Shown piece after piece: positions 442 to 41,916 of a stretch of DNA of 43,842 bases; the stretch's first letter is position 1, and each line of letters starts with the position of its first letter. Origin of the DNA: a virus; IMG/VR virus record IMGVR_UViG_3300027706_000020, positions 1-43,842 of that record; one strand, given 5' to 3'. A model generated the notes under the pieces. That model saw nothing but the letters and a program-made list of their open reading frames with translations. It searched no databases and was not told where the DNA came from. The translations under genes were made by a program, and so were the position numbers.

Positions 442-470
442 TTGACAGATCGCAGTTGCGATGATATATG
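442..470 (+). promoter_or_regulatory. Promoter P1 with CGCA-N2-TGCG palindrome, ahead of the portal unit
   Basis: The -35 TTGACA (442-447) and -10 TATATG (465-470) are separated by exactly 17 bp. The palindrome CGCAGTTGCG fills 451-460 inside the spacer, where a bound protein would block RNA polymerase. The promoter begins 3 bp after the terL stop codon and would start RNA near 477. The next gene begins at 599, so there is a leader of about 120 nt. Confidence 0.8.
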
Positions 471-549
471 CGGCCGGTTCCTTGCTTGCCTCGGTGCACG
501 CCTCCATCCAGGCCGGGGCCGCAACGGAACTTATAGGTATGGGCCCCTT

Positions 550-584
550 CCCCGCCGGCCTTAAGTAAAGCTGGCGGGGATTTT
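550..584 (+). terminator. Terminator-like hairpin in the leader between P1 and the portal unit
   Basis: The arm at 550-559 (CCCCGCCGGC) pairs with 570-579 (GCTGGCGGGG) in a 10-bp stem with one G-T pair and a 10-nt loop, followed by ATTTT at 580-584. It stands downstream of promoter P1 and 15 bp before the ATG at 599. It could be an attenuator, the end of a short leader RNA of about 105 nt, or a leftover terminator of the packaging unit. The T-run is short, so efficiency is uncertain. Confidence 0.6.
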
Positions 585-598
585 ACCAGTGAGAGCCG

Positions 599-796
599 AT
601 GGCTTCGCCAAACCCTACCATTCCTTCGGCTTGGGACTTCGCTACCGGCGAGGCGTTGCACCAGCAAGTCGATGACGAAACCAACGAGCGCCGCAAGAAG
701 CTGATGCGGAACGCACAGGTGGCCGGAACCGGTTTGACCGCGGCGTCGCTGCTCGGGCTCGCCGGCACCAACGGCGCCGCCGGAGGCATGCAGTAG
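599..796 (+). CDS. Small hypothetical protein upstream of portal
   Basis: This 65-aa protein is not recognised. The N-terminal part is acidic and polar, followed by a KKLMRNAQ segment and a small-residue-rich hydrophobic stretch (about residues 42-60, GLTAASLLGLAGTNGAAGG) that could pack as a helix. The start is supported by GAGAG shortly upstream. Its TAG overlaps the GTG of the portal gene by one base (TAGTG), so it is translationally coupled to the portal. A small open frame directly before the portal is common in podoviruses; the role is unknown. Confidence 0.75.
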   Translation: MASPNPTIPSAWDFATGEALHQQVDDETNERRKKLMRNAQVAGTGLTAASLLGLAGTNGAAGGMQ

Positions 797-2559
797 TGAG
801 TCTCAACGCGCTGATTGCCGCGATCCCCGAGACGCCGCGCATTCAATCGGCGTATGAGCAGGATATCGTCGAGGAAACGTTCCGCGAACACTCTCAGCTT
901 GCGCTGATGCGGTATAATTTCGAGGCGCAGTGGGAGGAAACGGCATCTCTGATTATGCCGTCGATGCGGAACACGTTCCGTTATCTCAGTTTCCTATGGC
1001 CGGGCATGAAGAAGACTGAGATGCAGGTCGATACGACCGGCATGCTCGCGCTTTCGCGGTTCGGCGCGATCGTCGAGAGCTTGTGCACTCCGGCCAACAT
1101 GATCTGGCACACGCTGTCGTCGCTCGATCCCTCGCTCAACAAGGATCGCGCCTGCCGCCTGTGGTTCCTCGAAGCGACGCGGACGATGTTCCGCTACCGC
1201 TATCAGGCCGCCTCGGGGTTCATCGGACAAATTCCCGCAAGCTGGGTGAACCTCGGCGCATTCGGCAATCACTATATGTTCGTGGACCGGCTCTCGGGGC
1301 CGCATGGCCCGGAAAAAGGACTGCGGTACAAATCGCTGCCGGTCGGCGAGGTCTATCTGCGCGAAAACCACCAAGGCGTGCCGATCGGGTTCATCCGATG
1401 GTTCAAGTTGACGGCCGTGCAAGCGCTCGAAATGTTCGGCCCCGAGGCGTTTCCGCCGGTGTTGAAGCCGGCGCTGATGCAGAACTCGCAAATCCTCTAC
1501 GACTTCTTCCACCGCGTCTGCCCGCGTACCGATTATGATCCTGAACGGCTCGATCACCGAGCGATGCCGTGGGCGTCGTACTACGTCTGTGTCGCCTCGC
1601 GGACGCTGGTGCGGGAAGGCGGCTATCGCACCTTCCCCATGGCCGTCGGCCGCTATCTGCAATTTCCCGGCGAAACTTACGGGCGTGGGCCGGCGCAACT
1701 TGCGCTGCCGGCGTTGAAAACCCTCAACGCGGAGAAAAGCGATTTCCTGAAAATCGGCCATCGCACAGCCGACCCGGTGCTGTTCACCGGCGACGACGGG
1801 CTCGCCGATGCGGTGAACCTGACGCCGGGCGCAGTGAACCCCGGCGGCGTCAACAGCGACGGCAAGCTGATCGTTCAGCCGTTACCGATCGGCAATATAC
1901 AGATCACCAAGGAGATGATGGAGGAAGAGCGCAACATCATCAACGATCTGTTTCTCGTCTCGCTGTTCCAGATGCTTGAGGAACGCTCGAACATGAGCGC
2001 CACCGAGGTCATCGAGCGCGTCAACGAGAAAGGCATCCTTTTGGCCCCGACGCTCGGGCGCCAGGCCGAATTCCTCGGACCGCTGATTGACCGCGAATTG
2101 GACGAGCTGATGTATCAGCGGCTTCTGCCGCCGATGCCGCCAAAGTTGCGCGAGGCAATAGCCGCCGGGCAGGGCGAGTACCATCCGATCTACACGTCGC
2201 CGCTGGCGAAAGCGGCGCGGGCGCAGGAAGCGGCCGGGTTCATGCGAACCCTCGAAACCATGCAGGCGGCGGCGCAGGCGACGGGCGACGCTTCGCTGCT
2301 CGATTTCATCGCCTTCGATCGTGCCGGTCCGGGGCTCGCCGATATCCAGTCGGTGCCGGAAGACTGGCTCGCTTCGCAGGCCGAGATTGCGGCCAAGCAG
2401 CGCGGTCGGCTCAAGGCGCAGCAGACGGAGCAGCAGATCAAGGCGGCGCCGGCGCAGGCGGCCATGATGAAGGCGCAGGCGGTGGCGGCGAAGGCTGCGC
2501 CGCAGGGTGGCGGCGGCATCCCGGCGCCTGTCCTCGGGCAGATGATGGGGCTGAGATGA
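796..2559 (+). CDS. Portal (head-to-tail connector) protein
   Basis: This 587-aa protein matches the podovirus head-to-tail connector family (T7 gp8-type): an N-terminal EETFREHSQLALMRYNFEAQWEE region, a long conserved core, and the SATEVIERVNEKG segment near residues 405-420, followed by an Ala/Gln-rich C-terminus. Portals form a dodecameric ring at one capsid vertex through which TerL pumps DNA and to which the tail attaches. GTG is the start; it overlaps the preceding TAG. The stop overlaps the next ATG (ATGA). The last 60 residues are rich in KAQA-type repeats, likely helical. Family assignment is by recognition; position right after terL agrees. Confidence 0.88.
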   Translation: MSLNALIAAIPETPRIQSAYEQDIVEETFREHSQLALMRYNFEAQWEETASLIMPSMRNTFRYLSFLWPGMKKTEMQVDTTGMLALSRFGAIVESLCTPANMIWHTLSSLDPSLNKDRACRLWFLEATRTMFRYRYQAASGFIGQIPASWVNLGAFGNHYMFVDRLSGPHGPEKGLRYKSLPVGEVYLRENHQGVPIGFIRWFKLTAVQALEMFGPEAFPPVLKPALMQNSQILYDFFHRVCPRTDYDPERLDHRAMPWASYYVCVASRTLVREGGYRTFPMAVGRYLQFPGETYGRGPAQLALPALKTLNAEKSDFLKIGHRTADPVLFTGDDGLADAVNLTPGAVNPGGVNSDGKLIVQPLPIGNIQITKEMMEEERNIINDLFLVSLFQMLEERSNMSATEVIERVNEKGILLAPTLGRQAEFLGPLIDRELDELMYQRLLPPMPPKLREAIAAGQGEYHPIYTSPLAKAARAQEAAGFMRTLETMQAAAQATGDASLLDFIAFDRAGPGLADIQSVPEDWLASQAEIAAKQRGRLKAQQTEQQIKAAPAQAAMMKAQAVAAKAAPQGGGGIPAPVLGQMMGLR

Positions 2560-2858
2560 CCGGGCGCCGGTATCTGCCGACGCCCCTGTTGCGTTGGCGC
2601 CGCACCGCCGACGATGTGCGCGAGGTTCAGCGCGCCGCGAAGCTGCTGCTGCGGTCGCCGTCCGGCGCGATCCTCCTGGCCGATCTAGCGCAGTTCTGCC
2701 GAGCCGGCCAGACGACGTTTCATCTCGATCCTCGCGTTCACGCCGCGCTCGAAGGGCGCCGCGAGGTCTTCCTGCGTCTCGTTCAGCTTATGGAGCTGAG
2801 CGAGGAAGAACTGTTCGATCTATGGGGTGGGAAGTACCCCGACCAACCGAAGGAGTAA
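2556..2858 (+). CDS. Bbp19-like conserved phage protein
   Basis: This 100-aa protein resembles the Bbp19 family, named for Bordetella phage BPP-1, found just after podovirus portal genes. Supporting features are a central SPSGAILLADLAQFCRAG segment (about residues 35-52) and a GRREVFLRLVQL helix (about residues 68-79). The family has no settled function; position suggests a role in head assembly or packaging. It overlaps the portal gene by ATGA and is followed 3 bp later by the scaffold-like gene, so it is part of the same operon. Confidence 0.6.
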   Translation: MTGRRYLPTPLLRWRRTADDVREVQRAAKLLLRSPSGAILLADLAQFCRAGQTTFHLDPRVHAALEGRREVFLRLVQLMELSEEELFDLWGGKYPDQPKE

Positions 2859-2861
2859 CGC

Positions 2862-3782
2862 ATGGCCGAAGAAACTGCCAACACGACGACCGCCGTCAAC
2901 CCGACCGGAAACGTGGCAACGGCACCAGTCGCTCCGTGGTACGGCACCAACGCCGATCCGGCGCTTGTCGGCTACTTGCAAAACCGCGGCTGGGACAAGC
3001 TCGATCCGGCTGCCGCCGCCTTGGCCGCGGCGCAGGCGCACCGTGAGGCATCGCAGTTTCTCGGCGTGCCGCCGGAGCAGCTTTTGCGGCTGCCCAAGGA
3101 CGCGAGCGACGAGGCGGCCTGGAAAACGGTTTATCAGCGCCTCGGTGCGCCGGCCGATCCGAAGGAATACGCCTTCGACGGCGTGGACTTCGGAGACCCC
3201 GACCTGACGGCCGATTTCACCGGCGTTCTGCGGTCGAGCGCGTCGAAGTATGGCCTCACCAAGGAAGCCGCCGCGGGGCTTGCGGCCGATCTGTTCAAAT
3301 GGATCGAGGGCAAGGGTGCCGCGGAGGATGCGGAGGCGACGGCGGCGCGCGAGGCGGCGATGACGGCGCTCAAGCAGTCGTGGGGGAACAACTATGCCGC
3401 CAACGAATTCATCGCCAATCAGGCGGTTGCTAAACTCGATCAGATGATGGGCGGCGACGGCCGACTGGCGAAGGCGGTCAAGGCGCTTGTCGAGGGCGGC
3501 CACGCGCACCTGAACGATGCGATGGAGATGTTCCGCGTGATCGGCCAGGGGCTTGGCGAGGACAAGTTTGTCAGCGGCACTGGCGTGGGCGGCGGCGTCG
3601 GGGGTGCCATGACCCGCGAGCAAGCGTTGCAGCGTCGCTACGAGCTGACGGGCATTCCGGCCAACGGCGGCCCGATGGGCAAGCCCGATCAGGAATTCAT
3701 CGCCCGGCTCAACCGCGGCGACGCGGCGGCGAAGCGGGAGTGGGCGGCGTTGACCGCCATCATCGCGGGCGTGCCGCAGTAA
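2862..3782 (+). CDS. Scaffold-like head assembly protein
   Basis: This 306-aa protein has the form of podovirus scaffolding proteins: acidic, Ala-rich and strongly helical. The N-terminal part has WYGTNADPALVGYLQNRGW (about residues 26-44), and PADPKEYAF follows at about residues 96-104, a stretch often seen in such proteins. A GKPDQEFIARLNRGD segment lies near the C-terminus. Scaffolds line the prohead interior and guide capsid assembly. A GGAG-type ribosome site precedes ATG 2862. In most relatives the capsid gene follows directly; here an integrase module separates the two. Assignment rests on composition, motif and position. Confidence 0.7.
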   Translation: MAEETANTTTAVNPTGNVATAPVAPWYGTNADPALVGYLQNRGWDKLDPAAAALAAAQAHREASQFLGVPPEQLLRLPKDASDEAAWKTVYQRLGAPADPKEYAFDGVDFGDPDLTADFTGVLRSSASKYGLTKEAAAGLAADLFKWIEGKGAAEDAEATAAREAAMTALKQSWGNNYAANEFIANQAVAKLDQMMGGDGRLAKAVKALVEGGHAHLNDAMEMFRVIGQGLGEDKFVSGTGVGGGVGGAMTREQALQRRYELTGIPANGGPMGKPDQEFIARLNRGDAAAKREWAALTAIIAGVPQ

Positions 3783-3785
3783 GCC

Positions 3786-3968
3786 ATGCCCAGCGAGAGC
3801 CAGGCACAGGCGGGGCTGATGGCATTGGCCTCGACGCAGTACGGCCAGCGCAAGCTGCGCGCCGAGGGCAAGAAGCCGCCTCCGATTTCAGTGGCGCGGG
3901 AGTTTCGCCGCACCGATGCCGGCCGGGCCATCTCGAAACTGGCCCGTCATGTGAGGAAACGGAAATGA
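3786..3968 (+). CDS. Small basic hypothetical protein
   Basis: This 60-aa protein is not recognised. It is rich in Lys and Arg, especially at the C-terminus (LARHVRKRK), and carries GKKPPPISVAREFRRTD in the middle. Small basic open frames of this kind lie near scaffold genes in several podoviruses. It starts 3 bp after the scaffold stop and overlaps the next ATG by 4 bases (ATGA), which supports real translation. It may bind nucleic acid, but nothing in the sequence proves this. Confidence 0.65.
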   Translation: MPSESQAQAGLMALASTQYGQRKLRAEGKKPPPISVAREFRRTDAGRAISKLARHVRKRK

Positions 3969-4147
3969 GCGCAAAGCATTTCATCCAGAAGGCCATCAAG
4001 CATCCGGGGGCGGAAACCCGTGCCGCCAAGGCCGCCGGCATGTCGGTGCACGAATACGCGGAGAAGCACCAGCACGATCCCGGCACCGCCGGCCGGCGGG
4101 CTCGCTTGGCCTTGACGCTTTCGAAGCTTGCCAAGCGGCGGAAGTGA
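3965..4147 (+). CDS. Small basic conserved phage protein (KHFIQKAIKHPGA type)
   Basis: This 60-aa protein begins MSAKHFIQKAIKHPGA and ends LTLSKLAKRRK. Peptides with the pattern 'FI..AIKHPGAL..' are common small phage proteins of unknown function near head genes. It contains a conserved HEYAEKHQHDPGTAGRRARLA segment (about residues 29-49). The start overlaps the previous stop (ATGA) and its TGA overlaps the next GTG (GTGA), so the gene is tightly coupled on both sides. Unknown role; likely a structural or assembly accessory. Confidence 0.7.
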   Translation: MSAKHFIQKAIKHPGAETRAAKAAGMSVHEYAEKHQHDPGTAGRRARLALTLSKLAKRRK

Positions 4148-4449
4148 CGCCGATCGCGGAATACGCGGCGGCGTGCGGCGTGCATCCGCGGACGATCCGT
4201 CGTCGCCTTAACGATGCGGGTATCTTGCCGGCCCGCATCGGCCGGGGTATCGTTCTGACGGATCAGGACATTGCGGCGCTTGTGGAGGCCAGCCGGTGTC
4301 GCTCAGGTTGTACGCTCCCGGCACCCGCAAGGGCAACAAAACCTGGCTCGCCCGAGGTTCGGTCGGCGGCCGGGTTTACGAGATTGCGACGGGCGCAGGC
4401 GACGAGAAGTCTGCTCGCCGGATTGCGCGGGAATTCGCGGCGCGTGTAG
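4144..4449 (+). CDS. MerR/excisionase-like helix-turn-helix protein
   Basis: The first 50 residues form a MerR/Xis-type winged HTH: MTPIAEYAAACGVHPRTIRR (HTH about residues 5-24) followed by a short wing (LPARIGRGIVLTDQDIAAL, residues 28-46). Proteins of this size beside an integrase are usually recombination directionality factors that favour excision. The frame overlaps the integrase by 154 bp out of phase. Residues after about 50 look low in complexity and may be an unstructured tail read through the integrase start. GTG start, coupled to the previous gene by GTGA. An alternative role is a transcription regulator. Confidence 0.7.
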   Translation: MTPIAEYAAACGVHPRTIRRRLNDAGILPARIGRGIVLTDQDIAALVEASRCRSGCTLPAPARATKPGSPEVRSAAGFTRLRRAQATRSLLAGLRGNSRRV

Positions 4450-5288
4450 CCGCGACGCCGAATCGCGATCGGCTGACGTTCGCCGAGGCGGCGCGACGCT
4501 ATATTGCGTATAAGGCTCCAGCCCGCAATGATAAATTGCGCATTGACCGGCTGGTCGAGGAGATTGGCGGCAAGCGGGTTCGCGATATCGTTGCGGCTGA
4601 TCTGCATGACCTCGCCAAGCGGCTATACCCCGTCGGCGCTGCGGCGACCCGTAATCGGAACGTTCTGCGTCCGGCGGTTACTATCTTGCATCATGCGGCC
4701 AGTGAAGGGCTCTGCGATTGGATCAGGGTGCGGTATTTTCCCGAGCCGCGGCCACGACCGCGGGCGCTGACACCCGATGCTGCCGCCGCGTTGATCGCCG
4801 CAGCCGAGACGCCGCAGCAGCGGCTGTTACTGCGCTGGCTGTTTCTGCAAGGGACGCGGATCAGCGCTACCTTGGCGCTCGACTGGTTGCAACTCGATCT
4901 TGACCGGGCGACGGTCACACTGATCAACAACAAAGGCGCTGGCCGCGAGGAAACGTTTGCGCTACATCCGGAGGTGTTGGCCGATTTGCGCCAGGTCCGC
5001 GAACGCGCCGGGCGCGTGTTTGCGTGGTCGAGCCGGTCGAGCTTGCGCCGCTGGCTGCCGCGGATTGCGGCCAAGGCCGGCGTTCGCTTCACGCCGCACA
5101 TGGCGCGTCACACCCTTGGAACGATGATGGCGGCCAATGGCGAGACGCTGCGGGCGATCATGGGCGCGCTCGGCCACAGTCAGGCGTCGTCGTCGCTGAT
5201 TTATCAGAATGGTGACGTCGAGATGGTGCGGGCGGCGGTCGCCCGCGTTTCGCTTCCCCAAGCGAAAAAGTTGGGGAACGCGGCCTAG
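4296..5288 (+). CDS. int: Tyrosine-type site-specific integrase
   Basis: This 330-aa tyrosine recombinase has all catalytic residues: Arg188 (QGTRISATLAL), Lys213 (NNKGAGREE), His268 and Arg271 (HMARHTLG), His294 (LGHSQ) and nucleophile Tyr303 (LIYQ). Residues 1-50 form an arm-binding-like segment and about 60-145 the core-binding SAM-like domain. It starts at GTG with GGAGG 7 bp upstream. An attP-like tRNA 5' half lies 23 bp after its stop (5311-5354), the usual int-attP order. The protein joins phage DNA to the host chromosome. The oddity is its place between scaffold and capsid genes, in the same direction as the virion genes. Confidence 0.95.
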   Translation: MSLRLYAPGTRKGNKTWLARGSVGGRVYEIATGAGDEKSARRIAREFAARVAATPNRDRLTFAEAARRYIAYKAPARNDKLRIDRLVEEIGGKRVRDIVAADLHDLAKRLYPVGAAATRNRNVLRPAVTILHHAASEGLCDWIRVRYFPEPRPRPRALTPDAAAALIAAAETPQQRLLLRWLFLQGTRISATLALDWLQLDLDRATVTLINNKGAGREETFALHPEVLADLRQVRERAGRVFAWSSRSSLRRWLPRIAAKAGVRFTPHMARHTLGTMMAANGETLRAIMGALGHSQASSSLIYQNGDVEMVRAAVARVSLPQAKKLGNAA

Positions 5289-5310
5289 GTCCTTGTTTTG
5301 ATTAGCCGGC

Positions 5311-5354
5311 GTCTCCCGTGTGAAGGGTGTGCTCTCCCGCTGAGCTACGCGCCC
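5311..5354 (-). other. attP: attP-like site: 5' half of a tRNA-Val(CAC)-like gene
   Basis: Read on the minus strand, 5354-5311 begins GGGCGCGTAGCTCAGCGGGA, a tRNA acceptor arm plus a complete D arm (GCTC/GAGC), then an anticodon stem start CACCC and the loop TTCACAC, which places CAC as anticodon (valine). The tRNA match then breaks: the 3' side of the stem reads GGGAG, with one mismatch, and no variable loop, T arm or acceptor 3' strand follows. A tRNA half next to an integrase is the standard look of a phage attachment site. The identity probably ends in or just after the anticodon loop, where strand exchange would fall. Confidence 0.82.
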
Positions 5355-5373
5355 CGCCTCTAATGGTGGCAAT

Positions 5374-5402
5374 AGGTTAGGCGATAGATCGTTAAAACGC
5401 AA
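5374..5402 (-). promoter_or_regulatory. Possible promoter pointing into the tRNA half of attP
   Basis: On the minus strand a -35-like TTGCGT (5397-5402) and a -10-like TAACCT (5374-5379) are 17 bp apart and lead into the tRNA 5' half, whose first base lies about 19 bp after the -10. After integration this sequence would stand upstream of the rebuilt tRNA gene. It carries no CGCA-N2-TGCG site. Both hexamers match the consensus only partly. Confidence 0.45.
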
Positions 5403-5487: not shown

Positions 5488-5516
5488 TTGACATCGCAGT
5501 TGCGTTGTAGTATATA
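5488..5516 (+). promoter_or_regulatory. Promoter P2 with CGCA-N2-TGCG palindrome, ahead of the capsid gene
   Basis: TTGACA (5488-5493), 17-bp spacer, TATATA (5511-5516): close to a consensus sigma70 promoter and probably the strongest in the genome. The palindrome CGCAGTTGCG occupies 5495-5504, one base after the -35. It shares the core TCGCAGTTGCG with P1. Transcription would begin near 5523 and supply extra mRNA for the capsid and downstream virion genes. Confidence 0.85.
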
Positions 5517-25213: not shown

Positions 25214-25242
25214 ATTCAAGCGCAAATGCGATGACTTGTCAA
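25214..25242 (-). promoter_or_regulatory. Promoter P3 with CGCA-N2-TGCG palindrome, ahead of lysis and fibre genes
   Basis: On the minus strand TTGACA lies at 25242-25237 and, 17 bp on, TTGAAT at 25219-25214 (AATATG a little further is an alternative -10). The palindrome CGCAAATGCG at 25221-25230 is in the spacer. It is the only clear promoter upstream of the lysis-fibre block and partly overlaps the end of the preceding gene. Confidence 0.7.
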
Positions 25243-27851: not shown

Positions 27852-27880
27852 CATATACCATCGCAAATGCGATCACGCAA
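27852..27880 (-). promoter_or_regulatory. Promoter P4 with CGCA-N2-TGCG palindrome, ahead of the nuclease unit
   Basis: On the minus strand TTGCGT (27880-27875), a 17-bp spacer and TATATG (27857-27852). The palindrome CGCAAATGCG at 27862-27871 lies 3 bp after the -35, the same placing as in P1, and the -10 is also the same hexamer as P1. It would drive 27828 down to 25239. Confidence 0.78.
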
Positions 27881-30794: not shown

Positions 30795-30823
30795 ATATTA
30801 CCCCGCAGATGCGAGCTTGTCAA
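30795..30823 (-). promoter_or_regulatory. Promoter P5 with CGCA-N2-TGCG palindrome, ahead of SSB and polymerase
   Basis: On the minus strand TTGACA (30823-30818), 17-bp spacer, TAATAT (30800-30795). The palindrome CGCAGATGCG at 30804-30813 is in the spacer, 4 bp from the -35. It overlaps the last codons of the DUF2800 gene and separates SSB-polymerase control from it. Confidence 0.8.
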
Positions 30824-32023: not shown

Positions 32024-32323
32024 TTAGGCGCCGGAGTTGTAACCTTCGGTTGGCGTCGAGCGCCGCTCACGTAAAGCCGCGACCTGGCGCTGAGAGGGAC
32101 GGCGACCTTGGCAACCGCTGTATCGGCAGGCAATGTTGGTGCAATCGACACATGGGCCATTGTCATCTCCCACGACGAACCCGACACCCTTGCACTCGGG
32201 GCAGTAGTCGAGGCCACCACAGGTGCGACAGCCTGTCCCGCCGCCGTCGCAGTCCGGGCAAGAACCCGAACCATCGCAGGTCGGGCAGTAGTTGAATCCT
32301 GTTCTCGGTTTCGGCCGAGACAT
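32024..32323 (-). CDS. Cys-rich zinc-ribbon protein
   Basis: This 99-aa protein has repeated CxxC pairs resembling the DnaJ zinc-finger type: CPTCDGSGSCPDCDGGGTG (about residues 12-30), CRTCGGLDYCPECKGVGF (about 31-48) and then CVDCTNIACRYSGC (about 58-71). At least two zinc sites are likely. The rest is basic (RRPSQRQVAALRERR). It could bind single-stranded DNA or partner proteins in replication. Start ATG 32323 overlaps the previous stop (TGATG). An alternative frame in the same stretch lacks such motifs. Confidence 0.72.
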   Translation of the reverse strand: MSRPKPRTGFNYCPTCDGSGSCPDCDGGGTGCRTCGGLDYCPECKGVGFVVGDDNGPCVDCTNIACRYSGCQGRRPSQRQVAALRERRSTPTEGYNSGA

Positions 32324-32883
32324 CACAGCGCTTTGAGCCGCTTGATGAATTCGGCTCGCTTGGTCTGGTCCAACGTATAGACCGGTTTCAACGGGTCGCC
32401 GGTCATGCTGACGATCAGTTGCTTGATCCTGATCCCGGCGGGCTCGCCCTTGCTCATCAGTTCCTCGTTCTTCCTGGCGCACGCCTGCTGGAGCATGGCA
32501 TCGGTGATTTCGGGCTGCGGCTCCTCGACCGCCGGCTTGGGCGACTGCGGCTCCTCGACCGCCGGCTTGGGCGGCTGCGGCTCCTCGACCGCCGGAGCAA
32601 CCGTCGGCTCGGGCAATTCGACCACCTCGACGATCTTGGGCGTCCGCTGCACGGGCTTCGGCTCGGGCTTCGACGCCGGCTCGACCGCCAATTTAGCCGG
32701 CGACTTCTCGCCCACCATCGACAGCGCTTGCGCGACCGCACGCGCGGCGACATTGGTAATCTCGTCGTCGGGGTTTTCGCCGTCGTTAACCACAAACGAC
32801 AGCGACACCGTTGCCTTCTTGTGCTCGTAGTCGGCCGTCCGACGCTGACGCTGGAACTCGACTATGCCGTTGGTGATCTGCAT
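32323..32883 (-). CDS. Hypothetical replication-linked protein with Pro/Glu repeat linker
   Basis: This 186-aa protein has an N-terminal beta-rich domain (IVEFQRQRRTADYEHKKATV, about residues 7-26; VSLSFVVNDGE), a Pro/Glu-rich linker with tandem VEEPQPPKPA/VEEPQSPKPA units (about 98-123), and a helical C-terminal domain (ITDAMLQQACARKNEELMSK). It looks like two folded parts on a flexible spacer, as in adaptor proteins. The gene lies between the helicase and the DUF2800 nuclease and is first after promoter P6. Function unknown. Confidence 0.7.
   Translation of the reverse strand: MQITNGIVEFQRQRRTADYEHKKATVSLSFVVNDGENPDDEITNVAARAVAQALSMVGEKSPAKLAVEPASKPEPKPVQRTPKIVEVVELPEPTVAPAVEEPQPPKPAVEEPQSPKPAVEEPQPEITDAMLQQACARKNEELMSKGEPAGIRIKQLIVSMTGDPLKPVYTLDQTKRAEFIKRLKAL
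32521..32595. repeat. 30-bp tandem repeat coding the Pro/Glu linker
   Basis: Units at 32521-32550 and 32551-32580 differ by one base, with a half unit at 32581-32595. They encode 10-residue steps of the linker (minus strand). The length is a multiple of three, so copy number can change without frame loss. Confidence 0.85.
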
Positions 32884-32895: not shown

Positions 32896-32939
32896 CGCAT
32901 CTGCGTCCGACTATACAATCTCGGATGCGCGCATGTCAA
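32896..32939 (-). promoter_or_regulatory. Promoter P6, palindrome downstream of the -10
   Basis: On the minus strand TTGACA (32939-32934), 17-bp spacer, GTATAG (32916-32911). The palindrome CGCATCTGCG sits at 32896-32905, 5 bp after the -10, over the start point. A second palindromic segment ATGCGCGCAT lies in the spacer. It drives the Pro-rich, zinc and DUF2800 genes and overlaps the helicase 3' end. Confidence 0.75.
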
Positions 32940-34566: not shown

Positions 34567-34763
34567 CGCCTAAGCTTCCGCGCGATTGCTCTGATCGTTC
34601 GTCGCTGATCGTCAAGAAATATCCCGACGTAATGCGAACTCATGTGATACTTTTTCCAAAGATTTTCTTCCGACAGACGCCTCGCGTCATCGAGAAAATC
34701 ATAGTTATCGCGCAACCGCTTGCGCAAGGCGTCAAGCGAATATACCTGATCCATTCTCATCAC
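34563..34763 (-). CDS. Small hypothetical protein
   Basis: This 66-aa protein is unrecognised; it is charged and helical (ALRKRLRDNYDFLDDARRLS, about residues 12-31; DDQRRTIRAIARKLRR at the end). It overlaps the neighbouring genes at both ends by ATGA-type contacts, so it is translated in the same unit. Its DNA is AT-richer than that of the helicase downstream, which hints at separate origin with the 182-aa gene. Confidence 0.65.
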   Translation of the reverse strand: MMRMDQVYSLDALRKRLRDNYDFLDDARRLSEENLWKKYHMSSHYVGIFLDDQRRTIRAIARKLRR

Positions 34764-35308
34764 AAAACCACCCGATATCCAGGTTCATTGAGGAACGGAT
34801 ACATCTCGACGATCTTGGAATAGCTCGACGTAGGCCGGATGGCCTTTGCGAACTCTTTATGCTTGTCGAGATTTTCTGTCGTGGCGTTACGACGCCACTT
34901 CACAATCGCCCACAGTTCCGCGTAATCGGGATCACTATCCCGGCACTGACAATGATAGGTTTCGTGCGGTTTTTCGTTCGCGTACCACTGTGAACGCGTC
35001 GGGATTAAAATATTGGTCTTGAGTTCGACCGCCAACTTATTATCAGCAAATCCAAAACCAGAAGTTCTCGCTGGATCGAATACTTCGATAATGCCATAAG
35101 TAACTAGTGCCGCCACCGAATACTTTTCGAGAACGCGCATATCCTTTTGGATATCGGGCGCTCCCCATTTAGCTTCCAGGCGCTTGACAATCGCCGCCCG
35201 TACCTGCGTAGCAAATCCGTTTACTTTGATCTGTGTCTGGCGGTCGAGATACTGCCGATAATTGTATTCCATCGCGCGACGGATCACCCGGTCAAGTTTA
35301 ACGGCCAT
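34760..35308 (-). CDS. Hypothetical 182-aa early protein
   Basis: This protein is unrecognised. It has a basic helical N-terminal part (MAVKLDRVIRRAMEYNYRQY) and a possible alpha/beta domain with VAALVTYGIIEVFDPARTSG (about residues 65-84), KLAVELKTNILIPTRSQWYA (about 91-110) and a His/Cys-containing HETYHCQCRDSD (about 115-126). The ELKT element recalls nuclease cores (E-x-K), but no full motif can be shown. Start at ATG 35308, with GGAG 9 bp before it. Its DNA is near 48% G+C, clearly lower than neighbours, a sign of transfer. Confidence 0.65.
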   Translation of the reverse strand: MAVKLDRVIRRAMEYNYRQYLDRQTQIKVNGFATQVRAAIVKRLEAKWGAPDIQKDMRVLEKYSVAALVTYGIIEVFDPARTSGFGFADNKLAVELKTNILIPTRSQWYANEKPHETYHCQCRDSDPDYAELWAIVKWRRNATTENLDKHKEFAKAIRPTSSYSKIVEMYPFLNEPGYRVVL

Positions 35309-35525
35309 CTGTCTTTCTCCTATTGCGCATCTTTGCTCGAACGGTCGTCGGCGAAATCCCCAATTCCCGGCACTTGCGATGAAATGCCGGACGGTCCATG
35401 CCGGCCGTCGCCGCAGCACGGGTGACGTTGCCGAAGTGCCGTTCCAGCATCGCGAGAACGTACACAGTCTCGAACGCTCGCCGCGCGGCCCGCAGCGTCG
35501 GTATGCGCTGTCGCAAATCGGCCAT
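35298..35525 (-). CDS. Fis-type HTH DNA-binding protein; candidate master regulator
   Basis: This 75-aa protein is essentially a Fis/NtrC C-terminal (HTH_8) DNA-binding domain: AFETVYVLAMLERHFGNVTR (residues 17-36) and the HTH RAAATAGMDRPAFHRKCREL (residues 36-55), followed by a basic tail. Such domains dimerise and bind palindromes. It is the first gene of the leftward DNA-metabolism block, and its own promoter P7 carries the CGCA-N2-TGCG palindrome, as expected for an autoregulator. It is therefore the leading candidate for binding the motif across the genome. That link is inference. It overlaps the next gene by 11 bp. Confidence 0.8.
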   Translation of the reverse strand: MADLRQRIPTLRAARRAFETVYVLAMLERHFGNVTRAAATAGMDRPAFHRKCRELGISPTTVRAKMRNRRKTDGR

Positions 35526-35548: not shown

Positions 35549-35577
35549 ATGGTTGATCGCATTTGCGCGGTTGTCAA
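35549..35577 (-). promoter_or_regulatory. Promoter P7 with CGCA-N2-TGCG palindrome, ahead of the Fis-type gene
   Basis: On the minus strand TTGACA (35577-35572) with the palindrome CGCATTTGCG at 35558-35567 in the following spacer, 4 bp away. The -10 expected at 35554-35549 (AACCAT) is weak, so the promoter may need help or be weak by design. It is back-to-back with P8, with 17 bp between the two -35 boxes. Confidence 0.65.
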
Positions 35578-35594: not shown

Positions 35595-35624
35595 TTGACA
35601 AAAATTCATCGCGCATGCTACCTA
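35595..35624 (+). promoter_or_regulatory. Promoter P8, divergent from P7, with degenerate palindrome
   Basis: TTGACA at 35595-35600, 18-bp spacer, TACCTA at 35619-35624. CGCGCATGCT at 35610-35619 keeps the inner part of the palindrome with two changes. It drives the 168-aa gene at 35661, giving a leader of about 30 nt with GGTAGGGAG as ribosome site. Confidence 0.6.
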
Positions 35625-35660
35625 ATCCGCGAAACCTCTGTATCGGTAGGGAGCCGATCA

Positions 35661-36167
35661 ATGCCTCGAATGATCCGGCCGCGGTCGCGCGGGCCGCGTG
35701 TCGATACCGGCCAGCCGCGGCCACGGTTGGTGCAGCACGGCCGAAACCCGGCGTCGCCGGCGTCTCTCGCCAGACAGGCGCGCAACCGCGCCGCCTTCGA
35801 GCGAAACTGGCAACCGCGGCTGAACGAATTCCGCCGCTGGATTGTCGATTTGAAGGTGATGTACGACGCTCGCCAGTACCCGATCGGCTATTCGGAGATG
35901 GGAGCGCTGGTACAGGTCTTGAAGCACCTGTATCTGGAAGCCGAATGGCTCGCGAAACCGCAAACCGAGCGAAACGTATTCGCGTCACGTCTCGCAACAA
36001 TTCTCGAGGCTTTTCTGAATATCCTGAAGCTTCTCGATAATGATCATTATCAATACACTGAGGTCGAGGCCGAGCGGGTCCTGAGCGTCGTCAAGACGAC
36101 AATCCAGCAACTTTGCGACACGGATGAGATGCAAGCCCGTTCCCGCCCACCAGTCGCCCGGCCCTAG
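35661..36167 (+). CDS. Hypothetical 168-aa protein
   Basis: This protein is unrecognised. It has a basic, Pro/Arg-rich N-terminus (MPRMIRPRSRGPRVDTGQPR) and a helical body (LNEFRRWIVDLKVMYDARQY, about residues 54-73; LATILEAFLNILKLLDNDHY, about 112-131). The start is ATG 35661, preceded by GGTAGGGAG; the longer frame enters the divergent promoter region. It is a one-gene unit: promoter P8 before, strong terminator after. Standing alone opposite the Fis-type regulator gene, it could be part of the lysis-lysogeny switch; that is a guess from position. Confidence 0.7.
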   Translation: MPRMIRPRSRGPRVDTGQPRPRLVQHGRNPASPASLARQARNRAAFERNWQPRLNEFRRWIVDLKVMYDARQYPIGYSEMGALVQVLKHLYLEAEWLAKPQTERNVFASRLATILEAFLNILKLLDNDHYQYTEVEAERVLSVVKTTIQQLCDTDEMQARSRPPVARP

Positions 36168-36183
36168 CCAGCGGCACCGCGGA

Positions 36184-36239: not shown

Positions 36240-36282
36240 TTGCCAAATCGCCGCTGCGCTGGTATAGACGACCGCAATTGCG
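36240..36282 (+). promoter_or_regulatory. Promoter P9, palindrome downstream of the -10, ahead of the primase-helicase
   Basis: TTGCCA (36240-36245), 17-bp spacer, TATAGA (36263-36268). The perfect palindrome CGCAATTGCG is at 36273-36282, 5 bp after the -10, the same spacing as in P6, covering the start point. RNA would start about 30 nt before TTG 36304. Confidence 0.75.
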
Positions 36283-36303
36283 CGGCAATGTCAAGGGGCG
36301 AAA

Positions 36304-38283: not shown

Positions 38284-38304
38284 GCCTTAGTTCAGGGGAT
38301 CAGG

Positions 38305-38466
38305 TCACTCACGCTCTCCGACAAAAAAATCAACCGCCTGAAACGGCACATCGTCCGTAAGCATCTTCTCTAGGGCCATAATCAGTTTGGGCAATAGGCT
38401 AGGGTTGATGTGCAGGCAGATATTGCCCTCGGGGAGAACAATATCTGCCTTCTCAACCTCTAACAA
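38305..38466 (-). CDS. Possible small gene with TTG start (or 5'-broken gene)
   Basis: A frame open from 38514 to the TGA at 38305 encodes a protein-like sequence (KYQRVGNDLLLLEVEKADIV, NICLHINPSLLPKLIMALEK, FQAVDFFVGERE) but has no ATG or GTG; TAA closes it at 38517. The only start is TTG 38466, without a ribosome site, giving 53 aa. The upstream ATG at about 38509 is one frame off and stops after 16 codons. So this is either a TTG gene or the 3' part of a gene broken by an indel. It converges with the primase gene. Confidence 0.4.
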   Translation of the reverse strand: MLEVEKADIVLPEGNICLHINPSLLPKLIMALEKMLTDDVPFQAVDFFVGERE

Positions 38467-38539
38467 GAGAAGATCGTTGCCGACACGCTGGTATTTTCCA
38501 CTTCCATCATTTGATTACCGCCATGCCGGGTCCGGGGGG

Positions 38540-38623
38540 TTAGAAATCCCAAACGAACCCTTTGGGCATCTCCCCCGACTTGAGGATCGAAAGTAACTGC
38601 GCGCGGTTTTTGGCTACTGTCAT
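38540..38623 (-). CDS. Very small hypothetical ORF
   Basis: A 27-codon frame (MTVAKNRAQLLSILKSGEMP ...) starts at ATG 38623 with GGGAG 8 bp upstream and ends at TAA 38540. It is helical then aromatic (FVWDF). Good ribosome site and position between 38707 and 38466 in the same direction support translation; its size and lack of relatives keep the call weak. It might be the true N-terminus of the frame at 38305-38514 after a frameshift. Confidence 0.4.
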   Translation of the reverse strand: MTVAKNRAQLLSILKSGEMPKGFVWDF

Positions 38624-38706
38624 CGTGTACTCCCTGCGCCCGATCCCGGCGGCGCTCCCGATAGAGCTTGGCGCTCCGCGATGCCCCCGCGCGGCACTCC
38701 GCAGCG

Positions 38707-39186
38707 TCACGCTGAAGCACTGCGAATGTTGGCTTCCGCCATGAAGAGATCACGCGCTTCCGCGATCATGTGGTTCCATTTCCACCCTTCGACGAGTGCC
38801 TTGTGCATCAGCGATGCCAACAGCAATTCGGCCAGCCTTTCCTTGGTGACGGCGCCGGGGTCACCGGTGCCTTCATCGAAGGCTGTCAACGCGATATCGG
38901 CGAGACGTACAAACGCCTCGTCGTAGATCGGCAAAGTGGGGAGGGGGTCAGCGTCGGGGTCGAAAAAGATGACTTCGCATTGCCGCGAAAGGGCATAATT
39001 TCCGACCTGCTGAACGGCCAAGTTTTTATCCTGGCTGAGAAGCTCAGCCAGAACGAAAAATCGATCGCTCTTTCCTTCTTTGTCTTGGGGATTGTGGTAG
39101 GAACCGATGCTTTTTCGCACTTCACCTGCGCTTTTTGGCGGCAGATGAAGTGTAGAGAGCGTCATGAGCCGTGAAATATTGTCCAT
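38707..39186 (-). CDS. Hypothetical 159-aa protein
   Basis: Unrecognised. It has LHLPPKSAGEVRKSIGSYHN (about residues 14-33), FFVLAELLSQDKNLAVQQVG (about 43-62), an acidic FFDPDADPLPTLP (about 74-86), and helical stretches to the end (LAELLLASLMHKALVEGWKW, about 118-137). AAAGGACAGG stands before ATG 39186. It is transcribed leftward from P10, which carries the phage palindrome, and its 5' side adjoins the repeat-rich origin-like region, so a role in replication start or its control is possible. Confidence 0.7.
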   Translation of the reverse strand: MDNISRLMTLSTLHLPPKSAGEVRKSIGSYHNPQDKEGKSDRFFVLAELLSQDKNLAVQQVGNYALSRQCEVIFFDPDADPLPTLPIYDEAFVRLADIALTAFDEGTGDPGAVTKERLAELLLASLMHKALVEGWKWNHMIAEARDLFMAEANIRSASA

Positions 39187-39228
39187 TTTCCTGTCCTTTC
39201 CCAGGGTTGAAGAAATCCATTCAGGCCA

Positions 39229-39268
39229 AGTGTAACGGATTTACCCGCTTCGATCAAACGCAAATGCG
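39229..39268 (-). promoter_or_regulatory. Promoter P10, palindrome just upstream of the -35
   Basis: On the minus strand TTGATC (39257-39252), 17-bp spacer, TACACT (39234-39229). The palindrome CGCAAATGCG at 39259-39268 ends 1 bp upstream of the -35, the same placing as in P12. A further half site (AAATGCG) lies at 39274-39280. It drives the 159-aa gene. Confidence 0.72.
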
Positions 39269-39365
39269 CCGGTAAATGCGGTGTTGCTCAAATGCCATAG
39301 TTAAGGATTGGTTAACAAAAATGTGGCAAGGCGGGTATGGTATGCTGACCTAACGAATTTCCGGT

Positions 39366-39467
39366 CAAAAGCCGGTCAAAGCCGGGAAAGTATTGGAAAC
39401 ATTGGCATTACCGTTCGGGCAAAAAAGCCAATGTTTTCAATACCCTCACCACTTTGACCGGCTTTTG
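39366..39467. repeat. Large two-part inverted repeat in an AT-rich, origin-like region
   Basis: Outer arms 39366-39381 and 39452-39467 (CAAAAGCCGGTCAAAG) pair perfectly over 16 bp. Inner arms 39390-39406 and 39427-39443 pair over 17 bp with one mismatch. Both sides have an 8-nt gap, so the folded form is symmetric, with a 20-nt loop at 39407-39426. The core GGTCAAA/TTTGACC is repeated again at 39363, 39515 and 39527. No gene covers it. Confidence 0.85.
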
Positions 39468-39514
39468 AAATTCTACTTTGTGAAATTTGCAAACGAAATC
39501 AATATGTTCCCAGG

Positions 39515-39540
39515 TTTGACCGGCTTTTTGACCGGCTTTT
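39515..39540. repeat. Overlapping TTTGACCGGCTTTT repeats
   Basis: TTTGACCGGCTTTT occurs at 39515-39528 and 39527-39540 (12-bp step), at 39454-39467 within the inverted repeat, and inverted at 39367-39380. Such iteron-like copies in both directions within about 180 bp are typical of initiator- or regulator-binding regions. Confidence 0.75.
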
Positions 39541-39586
39541 GGCGAAACCCCGGTCACACACTTTATGGTGTGACCGGTGGTTCGCC
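39541..39586. repeat. Hairpin/cruciform element
   Basis: CCGGTCACAC (39550-39559) pairs with GTGTGACCGG (39568-39577) around an 8-nt loop, and outer GGCGAA (39541-39546) pairs with TTCGCC (39581-39586). The stem reaches about 19 positions with two mismatches. It lies 21 bp after the stop of the leftward gene at 39608, with no T-run in either direction, so a terminator of ordinary type is unlikely. Confidence 0.7.
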
Positions 39587-39607
39587 ATAATGTCTCAATC
39601 CCCTGGC

Positions 39608-40081
39608 CTAAGTCCGCGATACCTCGTTCGTGGCGCATACGTGCGCCAAGACTTTCAGCGCTTCCCTGACAGTCACGCCACGCCGAAGCCCAAAGCGTTC
39701 GTCGATTTCCGCGACAAACCGGCACGCCCATTCAGGCAACGAGAACTCATTGGCGAACTCGTTGGGGTCTTTCGGACGCCAGTAGCCCCCTACCACGGTC
39801 GCATCGATCCTGTGCCGCTCCCGGAGATACACGGCAATTGGGCAGCGATCGGGCGAAGTCGAGACGGCAAACGTATCGTCATCGTAATTTTGCTGAGTCG
39901 CCAACCAAACGACAAAGTCGGCTTGGTCGATGGCGTTGCCAAGGGACGATTTCAGTTCCGAAATAACCGCAAGAATATTGCGGTGGGCGTCTTGGCTACA
40001 CGGCAGCATTCCAAGATGACGATGCAGTGCGCGCGCCGCCGCCAGGGTTTCCAACGTCTCTTTGATCGGTAGCTTTTCCAC
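39608..40081 (-). CDS. Hypothetical 157-aa protein
   Basis: Unrecognised. It has a helical N-terminal half (KETLETLAAARALHRHLGML; AHRNILAVISELKSSLGNAI) and a mixed C-terminal half with ATVVGGYWRPKDPNEFANEF (about residues 93-112) and EWACRFVAEIDERFGLRRGV. GTG start at 40081 with GGGAG upstream. It is the last gene of the leftward small-gene unit starting at 41189 and ends next to the hairpin of the origin-like region. Confidence 0.65.
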   Translation of the reverse strand: MEKLPIKETLETLAAARALHRHLGMLPCSQDAHRNILAVISELKSSLGNAIDQADFVVWLATQQNYDDDTFAVSTSPDRCPIAVYLRERHRIDATVVGGYWRPKDPNEFANEFSLPEWACRFVAEIDERFGLRRGVTVREALKVLAHVCATNEVSRT

Positions 40082-40106
40082 GTTTGACTCCCTTCAGGAA
40101 GGTTTG

Positions 40107-40131
40107 ACGGCCGGGCAAATCGCTCGGCCGT
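40107..40131. repeat. Intergenic GC hairpin, copy 1 (variant)
   Basis: ACGGCCGGGC (40107-40116), loop AAATC, and GCTCGGCCGT (40122-40131), followed on the plus strand by TTCGCCTTTT. It stands 9 bp after the stop of the leftward gene 40140-40352. It is a variant of the two hairpins at 40395 and 40761. Confidence 0.75.
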
Positions 40132-40139
40132 TTCGCCTT

Positions 40140-40352
40140 TTATGCAAGAAAGTCCCAGTCATCCAAGACGGTGCGCCCCGCGGTAGTGATTACCAGCCCG
40201 TCGCGTCCGAACGTGACGAGGCCCGCGTTTAACAGGCGTTCGATCCGGCGCCGCGGGGTATCGCGGTCGCGATGGTAACTCCCGCCGGCGTCGGTGATGC
40301 GCTCGATTTCGCGCAGTGTCGAGCGGGTTGAGCGGTTGTACAGGGGATGCAT
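40140..40352 (-). CDS. Small winged-helix-like protein
   Basis: This 70-aa protein starts at ATG 40352 (GGAG 8 bp upstream). STLREIERITDAGGSYHRDR and TPRRRIERLLNAGLVTFGRD, then GLVITTAGRTVLDDW, fit a helix-helix-wing layout as in small winged-helix DNA-binding proteins, where LLNAGLV...ITTAGR is a usual wing. It may be a regulator, a second candidate for control of phage promoters. The longer frame from 40373 lacks a ribosome site. Confidence 0.65.
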   Translation of the reverse strand: MHPLYNRSTRSTLREIERITDAGGSYHRDRDTPRRRIERLLNAGLVTFGRDGLVITTAGRTVLDDWDFLA

Positions 40353-40374
40353 TGTAGTTACTCCGAGGCTCATC

Positions 40375-40427
40375 AGGCGGCGCCTAACGCCGCGACGGCC
40401 GGGCGGTTGCCCGGCCGTTTCGCCTTG
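40375..40427. repeat. 53-bp direct repeat with GC hairpin, copy A
   Basis: Bases 40375-40427 are the same as 40741-40793. Inside, ACGGCCGGGC (40395-40404) and GCCCGGCCGT (40409-40418) form a perfect 10-bp stem with a GGTT loop. It fills the space between two leftward genes, 10 bp after the stop at 40428. On the plus strand it is followed by TTCGCCTT; on the coding side there is no T-run. Confidence 0.9.
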
Positions 40428-40715
40428 CTAGTTGAACTGGCCGACCGCGACAAACCATGCCGGATGATCCTGCGGCAGGATGGGGCGCAGGAAATCGGAC
40501 GTGATCGCGTTGAGTTCGTCGCAGAGAACGTCTTGCGATCCTCGGCCGCCGTTGATTTCCAAAGCGACTAATCCGCCGGCAACGAACGTTGCCATGACAC
40601 GTTTGCCGCTCAGGAAACTGCATGGCCAAAGCGCGCCGGGTCGCTGGGCCCATTCCGCCGTATCGCGAGCGGATAGCCAGATGGTGACGCGCGCGGGTTC
40701 GATCTGGTATTTCAT
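40428..40715 (-). CDS. Hypothetical 95-aa protein
   Basis: Unrecognised. It reads as a beta-rich small domain: VTIWLSARDTAEWAQRPGAL (about residues 10-29), CSFLSGKRVMATFVAGGLVA (about 33-52), ITSDFLRPILPQDHPAWFVA (about 71-90). Its style resembles small phage proteins that bind or modify host factors, without direct evidence. ATG 40715 has GAGGG upstream. It is flanked on both sides by copies of the 53-bp repeat. Confidence 0.68.
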   Translation of the reverse strand: MKYQIEPARVTIWLSARDTAEWAQRPGALWPCSFLSGKRVMATFVAGGLVALEINGGRGSQDVLCDELNAITSDFLRPILPQDHPAWFVAVGQFN

Positions 40716-40740
40716 CGTTTCGGCCCTCCCTAGGCCATCG

Positions 40741-40793
40741 AGGCGGCGCCTAACGCCGCGACGGCCGGGCGGTTGCCCGGCCGTTTCGCCTTG
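40741..40793. repeat. 53-bp direct repeat with GC hairpin, copy B
   Basis: Exact copy of 40375-40427. The stem ACGGCCGGGC (40761-40770) with GCCCGGCCGT (40775-40784) lies 11 bp after the stop of the leftward gene at 40795. The repeated form suggests duplication of a gene-plus-hairpin cassette boundary. Confidence 0.9.
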
Positions 40794-40794
40794 G

Positions 40795-41010
40795 TCACAC
40801 GTCGATGGCTTTCCAGCCTGACGCATTTAAGTGTGGCGGTGGCGGCAGTAGCAGCGAGCGCACGTGCCGCAATCCGATTTCCATTTCGTCCGGGTTGAAC
40901 GGACGCCCGAGGTAGGCGAGCATGACTTGAAACGCCCGCCCCCCAATGTCGTCGGAAAGGTGCGCAAGCGCGCAAGCCGTGACGTATTCCCGATAGGTGA
41001 TCGGCGGCAT
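40795..41010 (-). CDS. Hypothetical 71-aa protein
   Basis: Unrecognised. ITYREYVTACALAHLSDDIG and GRAFQVMLAYLGRPFNPDEM form a helical body, followed by a Pro-rich turn (LLLPPPPHLN). GGAG is 8 bp before ATG 41010, with the same GGAGTAAC leader as the gene at 40140-40352. It starts 5 bp after the stop of the 57-aa gene upstream and is followed by repeat copy B. Confidence 0.65.
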   Translation of the reverse strand: MPPITYREYVTACALAHLSDDIGGRAFQVMLAYLGRPFNPDEMEIGLRHVRSLLLPPPPHLNASGWKAIDV

Positions 41011-41015
41011 GGCGG

Positions 41016-41189
41016 TTACTCCGGCCGGCGGGCAGTGGCCCATTCGGCCGTCAGGATGCCCTTGGCGCCGAGCAACCGGACAAGCTCGGCAGCCCATGCC
41101 GCGGCCCGCCCGGGCTTGTTGCAGTCGGCGTACGCAATGGCTTTGGCCAGCGCCCGGTTGAGCGCTGCGCGGTCGGCGGTAGCAGTCAT
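41016..41189 (-). CDS. Hypothetical 57-aa protein, first of the accessory unit
   Basis: Unrecognised. It is Ala-rich and helical (ATADRAALNRALAKAIAYAD; AAAWAAELVRLLGAKGILTA). GGGAG precedes ATG 41189 with 9-bp spacing. It follows a long leader of about 300 nt from P11 that ends in a large hairpin just before the ribosome site, so its translation may be controlled. The longer frame upstream runs through repeats and promoter sequence and is unlikely to be coding. Confidence 0.62.
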   Translation of the reverse strand: MTATADRAALNRALAKAIAYADCNKPGRAAAWAAELVRLLGAKGILTAEWATARRPE

Positions 41190-41206
41190 CGTGGTTTCTC
41201 CCGTGG

Positions 41207-41267
41207 AACATTGGCGTTCCGCGATGCCTCCCCGGCGAGCGGGGAGGCATACCGCAACGTCAATGTT
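41207..41267 (-). promoter_or_regulatory. Large hairpin in the leader of the accessory unit
   Basis: Outer arms AACATTG (41207-41213) and CAATGTT (41261-41267), a partly paired 10-bp middle, and a perfect inner stem ATGCCTCCCC (41224-41233) with GGGGAGGCAT (41241-41250), loop 7 nt. In leftward RNA the hairpin ends about 18 nt before ATG 41189, next to the ribosome site. It could be an attenuator or translational control element. Confidence 0.65.
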
Positions 41268-41489
41268 GAGTTCCCCCGGAGGCCGGGGATCGAGCGCTCG
41301 ACTGACTGTTGCCAGCCTGCCCATGTCGCGGGTTCGATTGGTGCCGCGTTCGCCTCGTTCGCTGGTTAGGTGCCGGGCCGGCGATCCGCCCTTGGTGGTT
41401 GCCGGCTCTGGTCTTGGCCCCCTGCTCTCCCGGCAACTGGAGGCAGGGTTCCGCGAGGGTCCCAGGACGGGACTTGTCGCATTGGCGCT

Positions 41490-41518
41490 ACAGTAGACCG
41501 CCGCCGATGCGCCGTCAA
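41490..41518 (-). promoter_or_regulatory. Promoter P11 with one-mismatch palindrome, ahead of the accessory unit
   Basis: On the minus strand TTGACG (41518-41513), 17-bp spacer, TACTGT (41495-41490). The spacer holds CGCATCGGCG (41511-41502), the phage palindrome with one change, 1 bp after the -35 as in P2. RNA would run about 300 nt before the first start codon at 41189; that stretch (41190-41489) holds no convincing gene. Confidence 0.65.
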
Positions 41519-41578
41519 GCCGAAAAAGATAAAATGCGAGGCAAATGCGTCCCACAATGATGAACGCGCATGTATGTC

Positions 41579-41658
41579 GTGTTGCCAAAACGCAACAAGT
41601 GTTGCCAAACTGCAACAGATGTTGCCAAAGCGCAACAGGTGTTGCATTTGCGCCCAAC
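41579..41658. repeat. Tandem 20-bp iterons with internal dyad (TGTTGC-N6-GCAACA)
   Basis: Three units of exactly 20 bp (41579-41598, 41599-41618, 41619-41638) share GTTGCCAAA and GCAACA; each has the dyad TGTTGC-N6-GCAACA, with one base changed at the right arm edge in some. A fourth, divergent unit (41639-41658) reads GTTGCATTTGCG, which blends the iteron start with a near copy of the phage palindrome. The 20-bp step puts sites on one DNA face. This is a binding array in the 733-bp gene-free region. Confidence 0.88.
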
Positions 41659-41750
41659 GGTTTGCCCTCGCGCGCGAAAAGACCGGGGGTGGGGTAGGGG
41701 TAGGGTTCCGCGTGCGCGGGCGCGGGCGTGATCACGGAAACCTCCATAGG

Positions 41751-41831
41751 CGAAAAGGCACTTAGAAACCAATGTTAATCGTCGCTTAGCTTTCTCTCCA
41801 CAGACGAAAAAGTACCCGAAAACCAACACTA
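41751..41831. repeat. Imperfect 27-bp direct repeats
   Basis: 41751-41777 and 41805-41831 both follow the pattern CGAAAA..AC...AAACCAA...TA. They match at 18 of 27 positions and all nine differences are transitions. They lie in an AT-richer stretch before P12, with TTATCC nearby at 41850. No gene covers this part. Confidence 0.5.
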
Positions 41832-41876
41832 GCCCTCAACTAGGCTGTTTATCCGGGGCTAACGATTTCGGCCCAT

Positions 41877-41916
41877 CGCAATTGCGGTTGACAATATGAA
41901 GGCCAGATGTTATGTA
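41877..41916 (+). promoter_or_regulatory. Promoter P12, palindrome just upstream of the -35, ahead of the terminase genes
   Basis: CGCAATTGCG (41877-41886), 1 bp, TTGACA (41888-41893), 17-bp spacer, TATGTA (41911-41916). The expected RNA start is at or next to 41923, the ATG of the small terminase gene, so the mRNA would be leaderless or nearly so. The palindrome placing matches P10. Confidence 0.78.

Follow-up and report, generated by a model that had tools for sequence, protein, structure and literature searches.

A promoter-associated CGCA-N2-TGCG palindrome dispersed over the genome of a temperate-looking podovirus, and its candidate regulator

The sequence analyzed here (IMG/VR virus record IMGVR_UViG_3300027706_000020, positions 1 to 43,842, hereafter the window, meaning this whole 43,842-nucleotide stretch) looks complete. 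As in contigs that close into a circle, its final stretch duplicates sequence near the start, over at least 126 bases up to position 154. Gene calls, made with a simple script and hand additions, together with family searches identify terminase, portal, protease, integrase, capsid, tail and lysis genes, leftward replication genes, a rightward primase gene and small accessory genes. A single palindrome, CGCA-N2-TGCG (CGCANNTGCG), recurs over this gene set in ten exact copies, all of those listed in a preliminary description of this DNA being recovered by exact search. The units behind them (terminase, portal, capsid, lysis, nuclease, single-stranded DNA-binding protein/polymerase, recombination, early helix-turn-helix (HTH)/helicase, primase and accessory) lie on both strands and bear out its statement that the motif joins packaging, portal, capsid, lysis, replication, primase and accessory functions.

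Dinucleotide shuffles of the window contain 3.3 ± 1.8 copies, and none of 100 reaches ten; the one or two copies that the preliminary description expected by chance were too few, yet the excess is real. One-mismatch copies show no overall enrichment (52 found against 62 expected), although they form a local cluster at 41478, 41502, 41540 and 41643, so that the comparison with shuffled sequence it had proposed holds for exact copies only, and the signal lies in these and in their placement. Nine of the ten are intergenic in a window that is 9.0% intergenic (binomial P ~10^-8.4), and among all palindromes with 4-base half-sites and gaps of 0 to 12, CGCA-N2 ranks top in intergenic DNA (nine intergenic copies against one genic; next best, five). 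The one genic copy, at 30804, overlaps the final bases of the exonuclease gene and is located within the TTGACA-N17-TAATAT promoter of the next gene; the earlier impression that no exact copy lies in a gene away from a promoter is thus correct.

The association with promoters, defined here as sigma-70-like consensus matches with assumed start sites set 12 bases past the first base of the -10 element, is also marked. In a promoter scan blind to the motif, the palindrome is present at each of the five top-ranking sigma-70-like promoters, and every intergenic promoter scoring at least 14.7 has an exact or one-mismatch copy. In a scan using the hexamers only, nine of the ten copies fall on the 20 top-scoring sites, where circular shifts leave a mean of 0.28; no other N2 palindrome exceeds one there. 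The copy missed by the promoter scan, at 27862, falls within a weaker TTGCGT-N17-TATATG promoter, in agreement with the earlier claim that all copies occupy promoter regions.

Three position classes can be distinguished relative to the start site. Six copies occupy the -35/-10 spacer, with centers between -18.5 and -23.5: on the plus strand, CGCAGTTGCG at 451-460 in TTGACA(442)-N17-TATATG(465) before the portal operon (-21.5) and again at 5495-5504 in TTGACA(5488)-N17-TATATA(5511) before the capsid gene (-23.5); on the minus strand, 25221-25230 in TTGACA-N17-TTGAAT (25242-25214) before the lysis genes (-18.5), 27862-27871 in the promoter with the weak -35 mentioned above, before nuclease/exonuclease genes (-21.5), 30804-30813 (promoter at 30823-30795) before the genes for a Gp2.5-like single-stranded DNA-binding protein and DNA polymerase (-20.5), and 35558-35567 in the leftward promoter 35577-35549 of an operon encoding an HTH_8 protein and a helicase (-20.5). 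Two copies are centered at +2.5, one at 32896-32905 (minus strand; TTGACA-N18-TATAGT, 32939-32910) before gene 32323-32883 and exonuclease genes, and one at 36273-36282 (plus strand; TTGCCA-N17-TATAGA, 36240-36268) before the primase gene. The remaining two stand one base 5' of the -35 element, centered at -41.5: 39259-39268 (minus strand; TTGATC-N17-TACACT, 39257-39229) before accessory gene 38707-39186, and 41877-41886 (plus strand; TTGACA-N17-TATGTA, 41888-41916) before the terminase genes. Flanking bases show a weak preference for A at -2 and T at -1. The degenerate copies reported earlier also lie inside promoters: 41502 (one mismatch, -23.5) accompanies a further one-mismatch copy at 41478 (+0.5) in the leftward accessory promoter TTGACG-N17-TACTGT (41490-41518; whole region 41478-41518, minus strand), and 35610 (two mismatches) is found in the spacer of the rightward promoter TTGACA-N18-TACCTA (35595-35625, plus strand) of gene 35661-36167. 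A hairpin role for the palindrome was judged unlikely, as its loop would be 2 nucleotides, and so was a MerR-type reader, as the promoter spacers are 17-18 bp.

Motif, placement and position classes are direct results of computation. Their interpretation, to which we give about even chances, is that a single dimeric regulator, encoded by a temperate podovirus, recognizes CGCA-N2-TGCG as its operator and controls nearly every sigma-70-like promoter of the phage. The placement strongly supports the single global regulator proposed in the preliminary description, while a candidate for the protein that reads the sites is discussed below; we infer that a single dimeric regulator acts on the whole set, mainly as a repressor. 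Repression is predicted from the spacer and start-site positions; that the spacer copies vary in position by several bases fits steric repression better than it fits activation. RNA polymerase would be blocked by regulator sitting in the spacer at six promoters or across the start site at two. At -41.5, before the terminase and one accessory gene, the regulator might obstruct the -35 element or might act as an activator, for which lambda CI at PRM offers the textbook parallel.

A temperate lifestyle, also assumed in the preliminary description, is plausible because the phage encodes a tyrosine integrase (4296-5288, plus strand; PHROG integrase, 2.5e-40) and an excisionase-like HTH_17 protein in an overlapping gene (4144-4449, plus strand; a weak HTH-like match, below curated cut-off), and the phage can plausibly be described as a temperate-looking podovirus. 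These two genes (4144-5288) are placed within the structural module, with the protease on one side and the capsid on the other.

The most likely reader of the palindrome, put forward with a little less than even confidence, is a candidate 75-amino-acid stand-alone HTH_8 (Fis family) protein encoded at 35298-35525 on the minus strand (Pfam, 2e-10; PDB 5m7n, 7.4e-8; NCBIfam NtrX, 3.2e-10). Its HTH_8 domain scores above the Pfam curated cut-off and, in the scans made, it is the sole HTH protein to do so besides the terminase small subunit. It matches only the C-terminal DNA-binding domain of NtrX, without the receiver and AAA+ parts, its best matches being found in Alphaproteobacteria and some in other Proteobacteria. 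Its gene, preceded by a purine-rich, ribosome-binding-like stretch, is the first behind operator 35558, in a divergent control region adjoining the primase, a place comparable to that of the CI and Cro-like gene in BcepC6B. The HTH_8 protein would be autoregulated through operator 35558, and would either maintain silence in the prophage or close promoters once early expression is over. NtrX itself binds palindromes of the forms CAAN2-5TTG and GCAN9TGC, which share CA-Nx-TG, and appears to repress when its site covers the start site (PMC9223101). The window motif contains GCA-N2-TGC and has only CA-Nx-TG in common with these sites, a likeness that is compatible with an HTH_8 reader and not specific to it. 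Another phage encodes a stand-alone NtrX-like HTH_8 protein of 94 amino acids (L285:9968-10252), the one such phage in an HTH_8 profile search, and CGCANNTGCG is not present in the 12.6-kb stretch examined around that gene.

The same operon encodes a 182-amino-acid protein with no assigned function (34760-35308, minus strand), whose gene overlaps the HTH_8 gene by 11 bases (35298-35308), suggesting translational coupling and making joint action possible. Divergent from the HTH_8 gene and upstream of the primase lies the gene of a 168-amino-acid protein without family match (35661-36167, plus strand), at the Cro-like position in BcepC6B; its AlphaFold model is all-helical and of low confidence. 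Searches with each of these three proteins found no close relatives.

In contrast with its regular placement in the window, the exact motif averages about 0.5 copy per 44 kb in 38 related records, where its conservation was not found; 13 helicase-related loci have only scattered single or double copies, the annotated relative MW202898 does not conserve the motif, and BcepC6B has three copies without intergenic enrichment. The expectation of the preliminary description that the motif would precede orthologous genes of relatives is not borne out by the exact motif. Scanning genomes with the helicase and the portal found no useful prophage. The nearest relative by portal (G001, locus L005; 60%) has a different palindrome, CTAC-N6-GTAG, present seven times and always intergenic (sites at L241:17480-17681, L242:4460 and L242:19084, at terminase, capsid and lysis-position promoters). 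It occurs in the spacer before the capsid gene (TTGACG-atcCTACTACTCGGTAG), before lysis-position genes and as a cluster before the terminase small subunit, so that terminase, capsid and lysis units are marked in both phages by palindromes that differ, which fits a diverged repressor specificity. A second relative, G016, has TCACGAAATCGTGA one base 5' of TTGACA, twice, a geometry matching the -41.5 class of the window. One good case and one partial case suggest that operators may stay in place as their sequence diverges, in the manner of heteroimmunity. Capsid promoters of relatives often hold inverted repeats of their own (combined P ~1e-7, for hand-picked promoters and related rows), most of which do not recur within their own genome, and the one in L225 also resembles a terminator; for these reasons they were not accepted as proof of operator networks. 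Some related phages also have intergenic repeats of about 50 bp (L268:396, 807, 1538 and 2420; L266:2266 and 2667) whose flanks (taacgggatcgctagg...cttacgata) are conserved and whose hairpin arms vary between phages.

Several observations weigh against the proposed regulator and its reader. Beyond the rarity of the exact motif in relatives, some -10 elements are poor (AACCAT, TTGAAT), the 75-amino-acid protein gives a poor AlphaFold model (pLDDT, the predicted local distance difference test, of 56), and reported NtrX site spacings differ from that of the window palindrome. The HTH_8 gene and the helicase form one operon, which suits an early Cro-like regulator over a lysogenic repressor, and the BcepC6B helicase sits elsewhere, making synteny with the window approximate. 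Finally, the weak flank preference of the window copies matches the ATCGCANNTGCGAT form seen at several Xre-type control regions, and no Xre gene is detectable in the window.

The operators may be real and read by another phage protein, namely the products of 40140-40352, 4144-4449, or the 168- or 182-amino-acid protein. The first is a winged-helix-like protein of 70 amino acids that, like the excisionase-like protein, has a weak HTH-like match, and the 168-amino-acid gene is divergently transcribed from the same control region as the HTH_8 gene; given that all matches but that of the HTH_8 protein are below curated cut-offs, and that the 168-amino-acid protein has neither a family match nor a confident model, this seems unlikely, if worth keeping in view. 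A host regulator, such as host NtrX or another repressor, could instead read the palindrome and tie the phage programme to host physiology. No Xre repressor was found in the phage, its HTH_8 protein resembles NtrX of Alphaproteobacteria, and at some promoters NtrX appears to act as a repressor that covers the start site (PMC9223101); relatives, however, lack the motif, although a shared host regulator would favor shared sites, and published NtrX sites are spaced differently. This reading seems quite improbable.

A lytic timing switch in place of a lysogenic repressor, in which a protein made early turns phage promoters off once early genes have been expressed and may activate that of the terminase, overlaps with the proposed phage-encoded regulator and concerns when it acts. 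It agrees with the operon shared by the HTH_8 gene and the helicase, with the class II activator position (-41.5) of the terminase operator, and with the marking of terminase, capsid and lysis promoters by the G001 palindrome, whereas the spacer operators of portal and capsid predict repression, and the integrase and excisionase-like genes indicate lysogeny; we regard it as the less probable but most substantial alternative. Chance or a compositional artefact could appeal to a count that alone is moderate (10 against 3.3) and to the lack of one-mismatch enrichment, but is refuted by the intergenic placement, the independently predicted promoters and the repeated offsets, and retains practically no probability. 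For the phage-encoded regulator, a further-reaching version, in which a stand-alone NtrX-type domain derived from a bacterial response regulator is the master repressor, acting through operators at nearly all promoters, and relatives keep operator positions while changing the palindrome, appears possible but doubtful.

Sets of operators scattered over a phage genome and read by one repressor are already known from the Bacillus subtilis prophage SPbeta, from P1 and from mycobacteriophage L5, and the window likewise has one site repeated at promoter after promoter along its length. In logic it is closest to SPbeta, where the master repressor MrpR acts at about ten promoter regions (SPBRE) dispersed over a temperate phage (PMC10516654); SPBRE is, however, a different 15-bp motif, and MrpR has a non-catalytic tyrosine recombinase fold, while the only recombinase-like gene of the window matches integrase families, keeps the R, HxxR and Y residues (by eye) and looks like an ordinary integrase. 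P1 relies on one repressor, C1, whose 22 operators are likewise scattered over its genome (PMC8546580); these are 17 bp long and asymmetric, unlike the 10-bp palindrome of the window. The stoperator-like logic suggested in the preliminary description is a weaker comparison: L5 also has many copies of one repressor site across a temperate genome, yet these are asymmetric, oriented, present in 20-30 copies per genome and mostly away from promoters (PMC6550527), whereas the window sites are palindromic and promoter-bound and do not classify as stoperators. NtrX provides a homologous DNA-binding domain and CA-Nx-TG palindromes, and differs from the stand-alone 75-amino-acid domain of the window.

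Operators of Xre-type CI/Cro or Aca2 proteins have the same CGCANNTGCG core in a promoter spacer, and the Aca2 binding probe contains TTCGCAATTGCGAA (PMC9410881); they differ in having few, often local copies and in needing Xre or Aca2 proteins. Neither an HTH_3 gene of the Xre/CI type (PF01381 six-frame search, no match at E ≤ 10) nor an Aca2_YdiL domain protein (PF08965 search) was detected in the window. A viral scan identified promoter-embedded CGCANNTGCG at 118 or more loci, many perhaps by chance, some of which combine two or three copies, frequently in the form ATCGCANNTGCGAT, in a control region with Xre-type CI/Cro genes beside it. Such records have one to six copies each, often local to one control region, and none of 50 viral records with the promoter-embedded motif reached ten.

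In most well-known temperate phages one or two early promoters are repressed and a cascade handles the remainder. The window is unusual in the marking of nearly all its strong predicted promoters, structural ones included, and in having a stand-alone NtrX-type domain as candidate reader. The phage appears to mark almost every strong promoter, including those of portal, capsid and terminase, so that one small DNA-binding protein could silence nearly the whole virus, offering a compact system in which to study repression of an entire genome, and an example of operators that may stay in position while specificity shifts between relatives. If the HTH_8 protein is indeed the reader, a response-regulator DNA-binding domain would join the known kinds of phage repressor.

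Other repeats are present in the accessory region. Similar GC-rich hairpins of the CGGCCGGGCGGTTGCCCGGCCGTTTCGCCTT type lie between small accessory genes (40100-40140, 40395-40427 and 40755-40795) and may be repeated terminators or cassette boundaries, and in a long intergenic stretch (39364-39580) units resembling TGACCGGCTTTT recur alongside a strong hairpin (ccggtcacac...gtgtgaccgg). Three 18-bp palindromes (TGTTGCCAAANNGCAACA) follow one another in tandem at 20-bp spacing, with a partial fourth (41580-41655), in the interval separating the accessory promoter from that of the terminase; they could serve as iterons, as a partition site or as the operators of another regulator.

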